Assembly (NCBI GenBank): GCA_022446825.1
Contig: JAKVBY010000028.1
Coordinates: 16,192 to 53,422 of the forward strand
Length of the DNA stretch: 37,231 bases
Reading direction: 5' to 3'
DNA from: Pirellulaceae bacterium
GTDB taxonomy: Bacteria; Planctomycetota; Planctomycetia; Pirellulales; Pirellulaceae
Shown: in pieces, positions 347-9,772 of the stretch
How positions within the stretch are numbered: position 1 is the first letter of the stretch
Layout of the letters: each line of letters starts with the position of its first letter
Position numbers and translations under genes: made by a program
The notes under the pieces: model-generated
What the model was told of the DNA's origin: nothing
The model's input: only the letters and a program-made list of their open reading frames with translations
Databases searched by the model: none

Positions 347-1369
347 CTACTTCGGACCTTCGCTCCGAACCCAAGATTGCGAATCAGGGTGAAAACGGCG
401 CCAAGCTTCGATGTATGAAATCATGGCCGGAAGCGTTGTCAGTTGTTTTCCTTTTAGTAATCCTCTGACGGCGACACCTCGGAGCAAATCCCATTCGGAC
501 CCAGTTTCGATATCAAACACACCACTAGTTTTCTCAAAAAAATGAAGTTCTTGGCCATCACTTTGACGGACATGAATCACCGGAGTACCTGTCGAGGAAT
601 CGAAATAAACAATCACTGGCCGCCCATCAAATTGATCATTAGCGAGATTTTGCTTGTGAAGATCGCTGAAATGCCAATCCTTTGCATTCACCTCGTTGGC
701 CAAACCAACCAACATTTTGGCATCATGGTCAAAATGCTCATACATGTCTCGGTGGTAATCGTTGGTGATACGTTGAAGCGCACCCACTGTGGTAGCCGGG
801 TAACGCGATTTCCATAAGCCCCAAGTCGTGAACAAACTAGGAAACACCGCTAACTTTGTACCTTGTTGCGCACCATCCACTGCCAGTCCAAGCATTTGAC
901 TCCAACTGGTGTGCGTTTCCTGGTCTTCTAAAACAAGGCCCTGTCTCCATTGTAATCCGGAAAGAAAAAACGTTAAAACAGTGCCGTCTACTTCTCTGGC
1001 ATACACGATGCCGTTATGACAAAGATTTCAAAATGTGACCGCTAAGGGCACCTCACCCAAAACATCATTAAAAATCTCGCGTTCCGGACCGGACAGCATA
1101 TTTGCCGGATAAGCCCTGGCAATTCCCGCGACTTCAACACCAATGACCAGTTCCTGCTCATCCAGATACTTCGACGCATCCGTCGCCGAATAAACCTCCA
1201 GCTTCACAATCGGGGCTCTGGGATGCGTTACTCGCCGCAAATCTGAATGATTTGCTGATTTTTCTTGCTGCGGGGGGCCGACAAAGCACCAGTAGCCAAG
1301 GAAAATCAGCACACAAATGCCCAGAATCCAGCCAACCGATTTGAGGCCACGCTTATTTCGCTCTACCAT
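347..1369 (-). CDS. DUF3179 membrane-anchored protein, probable selenoprotein (UGA = Sec114)
   Basis: The frame is open from an ATG at 1369 to a TAG at 347 (340 codons), apart from one TGA at 1028-1030 (codon 114). Both halves match DUF3179. The N-terminal half has a membrane anchor (about residues 12-31) and a GIARAYP...FNDVLGEVPLAVTF block. The C-terminal half has DGTVLTF..SGL, SWSQ, ETGSEWDLLRG and a final AWRRFHPD block. As I recall the family, VTF or VTY is followed by a CxxC motif (VTYCPLC). Here the sequence is VTF-TGA-N-L-C-H, so the TGA replaces the first Cys and gives UxxC. The seven codons between the TGA and the next possible start (GTG at 1006) read NLCHNGI, which also fits the family. 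There is no frameshift or second stop. I therefore annotate one selenoprotein rather than two genes. The alternative is a nonsense mutation in a pseudogene. DUF3179 has no established biochemical role; a redox role is inferred from the CxxC position. Confidence 0.8.
998..1030 (-). promoter_or_regulatory. Candidate bacterial SECIS element after the in-frame UGA
   Basis: Counting the U of UGA as 1, bases 19-23 (GGCAU) and 29-33 (AUGCC) form a perfect 5-bp stem closing the loop CGUGU (24-28). The loop has G at its second position, followed by U (25-26). In the E. coli fdhF SECIS the critical loop bases are G23 and U24 on the same count, so spacing and loop identity agree closely. The lower stem is irregular; CUU (7-9) with AAG (38-40), or GUC (11-13) with GAC (43-45), could extend it. 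The fold was worked out by eye. No SelA, SelB or tRNA-Sec gene is in the window. Confidence 0.6.
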
Positions 1370-6097: not shown

Positions 6098-9000
6098 TTA
6101 CTGGCCCATATGGCAGTTCTTGTACTTCTTACCGCTACCGCACGGACAGGGAGCATTACGGCCGACTCGTTCACCACGATTGCGAATCGTCTCGGGTTTA
6201 TTGTCCTGGCTATTCTGAATGGCAGCTTCTTGTTCCGAAGCAATTTCACTGGCCGACTGAGCATTTGCATGTTGCGCAGAAGTTTCCACCCATGTCGAAC
6301 TAACAAAATCGCCGGACAAATCCTCCATCCGGAAAATCAAGTCCGTGGCCCGCTCGCCGATGGATTGCCACATCGCATCAAAAAGCCGCATACCTTCTTT
6401 TTTATATTCAACCTTGGGATCCTTTTGCGCATAGCCTGACAATCCAACGCTGCTGCGGAGGTGGTCCATCACCAACAAGTGATCCTTCCATGCCGTATCG
6501 ACGATCTGCAAAAGAAGTTGCCGTTCCATACGGCGCATTTCAGGACGATAGCGATCTTCGACTGCCATCGACAGCTTGCGTTCCAGGTCCTCACGACCCA
6601 TGCCAGATATTTCATCCGTGGAGATTTCACAGGATAGGTTTTCTTCCAGCCATTGGGAGAGGCCTTCCAAAGCACCATTTCCTCCTCTGTTTTGGTGAGC
6701 TGTTTTCCCATCCGATTCAACACCAAAAATACTCTCCACTTTTTTCTGAACGGCAAGCGTTACTTCATGTGCTAATTTTTGATTTTGACGACTATGCTCA
6801 ATTAAAACTGCTCGAATTTCATCTCGTTGTTTGTTTTTCAGATCTTCCAAACTCAATTCCGAGTCAAAGCGGCTTTGAAACCAAGCTACTAAACCATCCC
6901 GATCAATTCTCGCGCTCGCGCCGGCAGAGGTATACCGTTGCAATCCAACCATGACAGGGTATTCGGACTCTTTCTCGTCATAGGCCTGCTGCGCCCGCTC
7001 GAAAACAAGGGCCTTAAAATCAGCTGGGTCAAGGTTCTTAATGCGATCGAAGTCGATGTCAAAGCCAAACTTAGTTTTCACCCAGGCAATCGCCGTTCTT
7101 TGCCCTGCATCTTCATCTAACAGGGAAGATCCAGCGCTCAGATCAATGTCCCCGATCGCTCGCTTTGCCCGCTCCAACAAAATCTCGGCGACACCATCTC
7201 GTCCGGCTTTCCTGAGATCACGATCCCGAAAGTCCGTCCCCCAGCGGGTGTTGGACAGCTTGGCAATCGCTTCCCAATTCCAATCGCTGGAATCTTCACC
7301 ATCGGGAAGATTTTCTTCAATTGTGTCAAACACTTGTGTTTCTGCCGCGCGCTGAGCCTCATCCTTGGCATAAGCTTCTGCCCCTTCGAAATCAGTCCCA
7401 CGAAAATCTCGCGGCTCCAACTCGGTCGACAATCGACTTCCGGCCCAATCGGCAAACGTTTCGACACCATAATCACGTCGAGAAAAATTGCCTAGAAATT
7501 CTTCTACTTGCTCTCGAATGGCTTCAACAATTAAATCACGGCAGTTAGCCCCATCCAGAATCTGCTGTCGATAGCCGTACACCCGTTTCCGCTGCTCGTC
7601 CATCACTTCGTCATATTCAAGCAAATTTTTTCGGATTTCAAAGTTGCGCTCTTCGACCTTTTTCTGAGCTGCTTCGATCCGGCGAGTAACCATTTTGCTT
7701 TCAATTTTCTCGCCTTCCTGCATGCCAAGCTTGTCGAGAATTGACTTCACCCATTGTCCCGCGAAGATTCTCATCAAATCATCTTCAAGTGACAAAAAGA
7801 AGCGACTGCTTCCCGGATCTCCCTGACGACCGGTACGCCCGCGAAGTTGCAAGTCGATCCGTCGTGCTTCATGACGCTCCGTTGCAACAACGTGCAGACC
7901 ACCCAGTTCCTTGACGCGAGCACCCTGCTCTTTCATTTGCTCTTTTTCTTCAATCTCCTTGACCAAGCCTTCCCATTCATCATGAGGTACGTCGAGTCGT
8001 GTTTCATAAGTATCCTGCAGGCGCGCCCAAGCCATTGTCTCCGGGTTCCCGCCCAAAACAATGTCAGTACCACGACCGGCCATATTGGTAGCAATGGTCA
8101 CCGCACCCAGTCGCCCCGCCTGCGCTACGATATCGGCTTCGCGTTTGTGATGCTTGGCATTGAGCACCTCATGCTTGACACCGCTTTGATCCAGTAGCTT
8201 CGAGAGCTGTTCGCTTTTTTCAATCGATACTGTGCCAACAAGTATCGGCCGCCCCTTCTTTTCGATTTCTTTAACCCGAGAAAGTTGAATCTCATTTTTT
8301 TGTTTACTGCCCTGAGGCTGAAAAATAAGACTGTTGTCGTTTTCTTTCAGGAGCGTGCCCCAATGCTCATTGCCATTACTTTCAACAATTACGTCCCATC
8401 TGTTTAATCGCTCTATCTCTTCAGCAAGTGCGGCGAACTTTTCATTTTCAGTTCGATAAATAACGTCGGGATGCTCCTGGCGTATCAGTTCGCGGTTTGT
8501 CGGAATGGCGATCACGTCTAACTCATAAATCTTCCAAAACTCACCGGCTTCGGTCATGCCGGTCCCGGTCATGCCACAGATTTTGTCGTACAGCTTGAAA
8601 AAATTCTGCAGGGTGATCGTAGCCAACGTCTGAGTTTCTTCCTTGATCCGTACGTTTTCCTTCGCTTCCACCGCCTGATGCAACCCATCGCTCCACTGGC
8701 GACCTTCCATTAAACGGCCAGTGAACTCGTCGACGATAACAACACTGCCGTCTTTAACAACGTAATTCACATCACGTTGATAGAGATTGTGGGCTTTCAG
8801 CGAATTATCAATCAAATGTGGCCATTCCATGTTGCCGGCTGTAAAGAAACTTTCCACTCCAGCAAGCTTCTCTGCCTCACGAACGCCTTCGTCGGTTAAA
8901 TGTGCAGAATGATCTTTCTCATTAACGACAAAATCAATCTCTCGTTTTAGCTGCCGCGAAATTCGGTCGGCCTCAGCATACTTACGTACATCTTGATGGG

Positions 9001-9772
9001 CCGGCCCGGAAATAATCAGTGGCGTGCGGGCTTCATCGATTAAAATGTTGTCGACTTCGTCGATAATGGCAAACGTCAATCGCCCTTGCGATTGTTGACG
9101 TTCTTTAGGGTATCGATCGTCGCCCGATGCAGCCGGTCGCATATTATCACGCAGATAATCAAATCCAAATTCATTGTTCGTTCCGTACGTAATGTCACAG
9201 GCATACGCTTTTTGCTTGTCGCTGACATCCATGTCGTTTTGAATCGCCCCAACGGTCAAACCCAATCCCATATAGATGGGGGCCATCCATTCCATGTCAC
9301 GACGCGCTAAGTAGTCGTTTACTGTGACCACGTGAACACCCTTACCACTGATGGCGTTCAAATAAGCGGGTAAGGTAGCAACGAGAGTTTTGCCCTCTCC
9401 GGTCACCATTTCCGCGATCGCACCACTATGTAACACGATGCCACCAATTAACTGAACATCAAAATGTCGCATATTCAAGAAACGACGTCCCGCCTCACGG
9501 CAGACGGCAAAGGCTTCCACGAGAATGTCGTCTTCGGTTTCTCCCGCCTTCAGCCGCTGACGAAAATTCTCTGTCCTTTCTTTTAATTGCTCATTCGAAA
9601 GGTCCTGTATTTCTGCTTCCAGCGCATTGATCGCATCTACCTTGACTTGAAGTCTTTTGATAAAGCGCGCATTCGAAGAACCAAACAGTGAGGTGATGCT
9701 GCGTTCAAAACCGCGCATCAAACCACCGAAAAAGATTCCCAAGAATTCCCAAATTCGTTCGAGTACAGCCAT
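6098..9772 (-). CDS. secA: Preprotein translocase ATPase SecA, enlarged form
   Basis: SecA drives secretory proteins through SecYEG by ATP hydrolysis. At 1224 residues it far exceeds the roughly 900 of E. coli SecA. Visible parts are Walker A MVTGEGKT (122-129), DEVD (238-241) with the following EARTP, the preprotein cross-linking domain (about 236-385), [11 protein letters not shown] (561-571) in the second nucleotide-binding fold, and [21 protein letters not shown] (about 645-665) with the arginine finger. Helical scaffold and wing regions follow. The C-terminus carries a zinc-binding SEC-C motif (C1209, C1211, C1220, H1221). Extra length comes from about 42 residues inserted near 458-500 and from about five repeated helical modules at 773-1077, where E. 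coli has one. waaA follows in the same direction. Confidence 0.97.
   Translation of the reverse strand: [1224 protein letters not shown]
6542..7456 (-). repeat. Five diverged helical modules within SecA
   Basis: Residues 773-1077 contain about five copies of a module of roughly 40 residues: an aromatic-rich helix followed by a short acidic turn and an amphipathic helix. Copies begin near 773 ([14 protein letters not shown]), 831 (WNWEAIAKL), 893 ([15 protein letters not shown]), 961 ([14 protein letters not shown]) and 1038 ([14 protein letters not shown]). Each resembles the single E. coli segment that ends in an ERI...Y helix before the conserved LDSLWKEHL region. Copy identity is low, so this is an old amplification visible only at protein level. 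Confidence 0.55.

Follow-up and report, generated by a model that had tools for sequence, protein, structure and literature searches.

The window analysed here, a stretch of 37,231 nucleotides from a Pirellulaceae bacterium, contains a gene of the DUF3179 family that is interrupted by a single in-frame TGA codon (Table 1). The gene is read on the minus strand from an ATG at position 1369 to a stop codon ending at 347, without any frameshift, and the lone TGA is codon 114. The initial annotation had described a single TGA in an otherwise intact frame of 340 codons without giving the strand; this holds on the minus strand, and the motif V-T-F-U-N-L-C is found at the TGA as claimed. A plus-strand reading of the same region contains many stops and was rejected as a gene. 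It had also been anticipated that gene calling would split the frame into two short proteins, and the list of open reading frames indeed gives one of 113 aa (1028-1369) and one of 219 aa (347-1006). The Pfam profile DUF3179 (PF11376) spans the TGA, matching residues 58-330 with 177 bits compared to a cut-off of 27; an NCBIfam search gave no matches. Residues U114 and C117 are the sole Cys/Sec residues of the mature domain, C19 and C28 falling within the N-terminal hydrophobic segment. The genes between 3356 and 15227 of the window are ordinary and code for a SAM synthetase, a Kdo transferase, SecA (1224 residues), a protein of metallo-beta-lactamase fold, a tail-specific protease and a sigma-54 regulator.

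Table 1. Features of the DUF3179 gene, in positions of the window
Feature	Position	Strand	Remarks
DUF3179 gene, putative selenoprotein gene	347..1369	-	340 codons and a stop; one TGA read through
In-frame TGA, codon 114, putative Sec codon	1028..1030	-	Aligned with the first CxxC cysteine of relatives
Cys117 codon, partner of Sec114 in U-N-L-C	1019..1021	-	
Hydrophobic segment at the N-terminus (residues 11-31), probably a membrane anchor or signal	1277..1339	-	Sequence; helix 15-27 in a low-confidence part of the model
N-terminal half of the domain, residues 56-205, with UxxC	755..1204	-	Rieske-like fold in the model
C-terminal domain half, residues 215-335, without CxxC; homologous to the N-terminal half	365..727	-	Rieske-like fold in the model
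SECIS-type hairpin GGCAU-CGUGU-AUGCC	998..1012	-	Begins 15 nt past the UGA; apical loop at a distance of 20 nt; G in the second loop position

All four sel genes whose search had been proposed at the outset are present in the source genome (6.17 Mb in 153 contigs, 94% complete). The selA gene (560 bits) adjoins selB (371 bits) on contig C77; selD lies on C132 (275 bits), and C134 carries a tRNA-Sec whose anticodon is tca (69 bits, with ARAGORN concurring). The selD match is contained within a frame of about 742 codons (G000:C132:34937-35854; L021, L062), whose N-terminal part, we presume, resembles the NADH-dehydrogenase-type fusion of other SelD proteins.

DUF3179 is present in 25 of 60 related genomes, with many copies containing exactly one TGA. 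When these relatives are read through, the TGA is nearly always placed in the column of the first Cys. The nearest subfamily reads A-T-W-U-H-L-C-H-N-G-I-V-Y and another one V-T-Y-U-I-I-C, while Cys forms carry T-W-C-H-L-C, T-W-C-E-L-C or V-T-Y-C-P-L-C at the same column. The alignment suggested by the initial annotation thus returns either TGA or Cys in homologues. Scanning GTDB genomes with patterns that put no constraint on the Sec column produced 74 loci, which belong to Planctomycetota, Verrucomicrobiota and Poribacteria where a phylum is recorded; nearly all have TGA in the first-Cys column, and since the patterns were those of the Sec subfamily, this share is valid for that subfamily and not for DUF3179 overall. 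The combined set comprises 72 distinct TGA sequences (including that of the window, and mostly from Planctomycetota and Verrucomicrobiota) versus 13 Cys sequences. That 72 distinct sequences share a TGA at one position is beyond chance. The subfamily to which the window protein belongs can be written [W/F]-U-x-L-C-x-N-G and occurs in Planctomycetota, Verrucomicrobiota and Poribacteria; going by these sequences, the Sec form prevails in it.

A frame that stays open across a TGA would also be expected if the codon were read as another amino acid following a change of the genetic code, for instance as Trp, or by unspecific readthrough. However, the corresponding column in relatives holds Cys and not Trp, and long genes nearby, secA (6098-9772) among them, have open frames under the standard code. 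With a covarying hairpin accompanying the TGA forms in addition, we assign next to no probability to this explanation.

The hairpin was compared in 71 of the 72 TGA sequences; L031, whose hairpin is its own, was set aside. At the fourth stem pair (21-29), 51 of the 71 sequences have A-U and the other 20 have G-C, with zero exceptions: a change from Ile to Val is matched by a silent TAT to TAC change in a Tyr codon. At the third pair (20-30) we find C-G 66 times, U-A three times and U-G twice, and the tip pair closing the GU (23-26) is C-G in 65, G-C in three and A-U in three. Counted by eye, the tree shows the switch from A-U to G-C at about seven distinct points, and the switch hence does not represent a single inherited event. 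In the Cys homologues the stem has mostly gone, three of its five positions being paired in only 3-5 of the 13 sequences. The bacterial SECIS model given in PMC13188914 has a loop of 3-9 nt, a stem of 4-16 bp, a G in loop position 1 or 2 and a spacing of 16-37 nt. The hairpin of the window fits this description with its CGUGU loop, 5 bp stem, G at position 2 and 20 nt spacing, but the isolated 21-nt hairpin, at -5.7 kcal/mol, is weaker than the threshold of -7.5 stated there. A 46-nt piece reaches -10.4 kcal/mol, although another register is then preferred. Taken singly, the hairpin does not stand out in folding energy (z about -1.8), and it is therefore covariation that carries the case for a SECIS element.

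Together, the sel genes and tRNA-Sec, the TGA/Cys column and the covarying hairpin support the selenocysteine-containing DUF3179 protein put forward in the initial annotation. We estimate from these sequence comparisons a probability of roughly 0.95 that the TGA at codon 114 is decoded as selenocysteine. SelB carrying Sec-tRNA(Sec) would read the UGA as Sec, guided by the hairpin 15 nt downstream. If instead the TGA were a true stop created by a recent nonsense mutation, the gene would be a pseudogene or yield a short product; the two open reading frames in the list and the long branch of the window row in the tree would be in line with such a view. It is made very improbable, however, by the conservation of the same TGA in three phyla, where a covarying hairpin accompanies it and the frame continues beyond it, by the Sec machinery in the genome and by the hairpin of the window itself, which has the commonest hairpin sequence of the set.

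The distribution of selA points in the same direction as decoding by Sec insertion. Among the 60 related genomes, selA scores above the cut-off in 37, including all 12 with a TGA-bearing DUF3179 copy (hypergeometric P 0.0013, a value which ignores kinship among genomes). In one of these 12, G020, the TGA lies in a damaged copy and off the Cys column, so that strictly 11 genomes count. Among the 30 genomes behind the GTDB loci, selA is found in 25 of the 27 with TGA. A selA match was absent in the two others, one of which has a tRNA-Sec while the second lacks both; this is possibly due to incomplete assemblies. For the Cys forms, a search for both selA and tRNA-Sec found neither in the genomes of L086 and L142, while both are present in that of L114. 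In a tree built with the Sec/Cys column masked, and whose root is not fixed, the Cys rows L086, L108, L114 and L032 are interspersed among Sec rows, which fits a repeated change from Sec to Cys; L032 and L142 form long branches. UGA/Cys switching alongside the Sec machinery would offer a clean case for studying the loss of Sec. The window row groups with the Sec rows L071 and L074 (98/81), its own branch being long (1.66), and the protein may thus have undergone some relaxation. A separate observation concerns L048/L057 (G020:C14) and L108 (KatS3mg110), where a Cys form among Sec rows keeps a hairpin GUGA-CGUUU-UCAC after the codon, perhaps a SECIS relic; a second, damaged DUF3179 copy lies about 5 kb from this Cys form.

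As to where the protein acts, the N-termini of most relatives resemble, by eye, signal peptides, anchors or lipoprotein signals, which suggests that these proteins probably work outside the cytoplasm. The window protein would accordingly be exported and anchored in the membrane. A confident AlphaFold2 model of it has a mean pLDDT of 89 (92 for the N half alone), and hhalign shows homology between the two domain halves (E 1.2e-26). In a VIA-align comparison, the C half superimposes on 5cxm with Z 8.4 and 2.3 A over 91 residues and the N half on 3c0d with Z 9.4 and 3.4 A over 98 residues; for each half the best 50 rows are all Rieske domains. By itself, Foldseek matched neither half to anything below E 0.001, the Rieske rows emerging with VIA-align, and a sequence search against solved structures returned none at E up to 1. 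Compared by hhalign to a small alignment of the five Rieske matches of the genome, one of them read in a wrong frame, the value was 0.64. Middling Z scores and a profile comparison without sequence link suggest resemblance in fold rather than membership among Rieske proteins. Both halves, as modelled, are similar in fold to Rieske [2Fe-2S] domains, but they lack the cluster ligands. The idea that U114 replaces a Cys of the Rieske cluster was dropped: judged from aligned ranges and strand order, U114 is placed near an early-strand turn outside the cluster loops.

In the predicted structure Sec114 and Cys117 would form a UxxC pair on a beta-hairpin of an extracytoplasmic domain whose two homologous halves are Rieske-like. 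Most probably this pair would cycle between selenol/thiol and selenenylsulphide, and a protein undergoing such a cycle would act as an oxidoreductase. A role as an anchored selenol/thiol redox protein outside the cytoplasm is what we favour with some confidence. It is conceivable instead that Sec is inserted as proposed and that UxxC binds a metal or an iron-sulphur centre in the Rieske-like domain, an alternative which concerns function alone, the decoding step being common to both. A CxxC located at a hairpin turn is reminiscent of metal knuckles, and the match of both halves to Rieske domains would also speak for a metal site. On the other hand, Z scores near 8 can reflect a common arrangement only, the comparison with the Rieske matches of the genome found no sequence relation, and the ligand pattern CxH...CxxH is absent from the window protein, U114 and C117 having no further Cys/Sec beside them in the mature domain. 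We therefore consider a metal site unlikely. The genomic context gives no functional hint for the redox role or any other, since the 57 neighbouring proteins from more than 30 loci include no recurrent family (the commonest is seen in three).

Earlier work has described Sec genes and selenoproteins in planctomycetes (PMC4807772), and a DUF3179 domain-containing selenoprotein (pfam11376, UxxC/T) already appears in PMC9312934 and PMC13188914, in the passages found there as one table line each without a function. The earlier guess that Sec members of the family might be on record is thereby borne out. The proteins listed there and that of the window belong to the same family and have Sec as the first residue of UxxC; the gene described here is hence a well-supported further member and not a new phenomenon. 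A literature search for DUF3179 found no function for any member, an Idiomarina study having a table entry only. What is added here is the prevalence of Sec in one subfamily, a probable extracytoplasmic location, the homologous halves, their Rieske-like models and a CxxU subfamily. Plain ORF calling cuts genes of this kind into two. In planctomycete-like bacteria an entire subfamily seems to be selenium-dependent outside the cytoplasm, and the predicted fold would provide a first handle on the function of the DUF3179 family.

Several other DUF3179 copies deserve mention. In L055 (G025:C35:700-2900) and L056 (G004:C335:24000-25878), from another subfamily, TGA occupies the same column, but the Cys precedes it (C-S-Y-U) and no Cys follows immediately. 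Both carry a strong hairpin some 15 nt past the UGA, with differing stem sequences. This CxxU arrangement is absent from the UxxC/T motif as given in the table lines of PMC9312934 and PMC13188914. A further branch is represented by L059 (G013:C109:900-3200), which reads V-S-F-U-A-V-C and has its own hairpin GGCGUC-GGUCU-GACGCC. The gene at L051 (G015:C125:29400-31400) shows the UxxT motif (W-U-P-A-T), has a SECIS-like hairpin and contains a second in-frame TGA upstream (R-A-U-A-Y-P) for which decay or an assembly error is possible. Tentatively, and as a speculation, DUF3179 could go back to an ancient duplication and be a relative of the Rieske fold that lacks the cluster and has turned into an exported Sec redox enzyme; the position of the partner Cys would be specific to the subfamily (UxxC, CxxU, UxxT), as would the SECIS hairpin. 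Finally, L052 (G015:C82:2000-4200) is a DUF3179 gene with an intact CxxC and a TGA off the Cys column (G-N-U-P-V-A-V), probably an example of a TGA that does not encode Sec.
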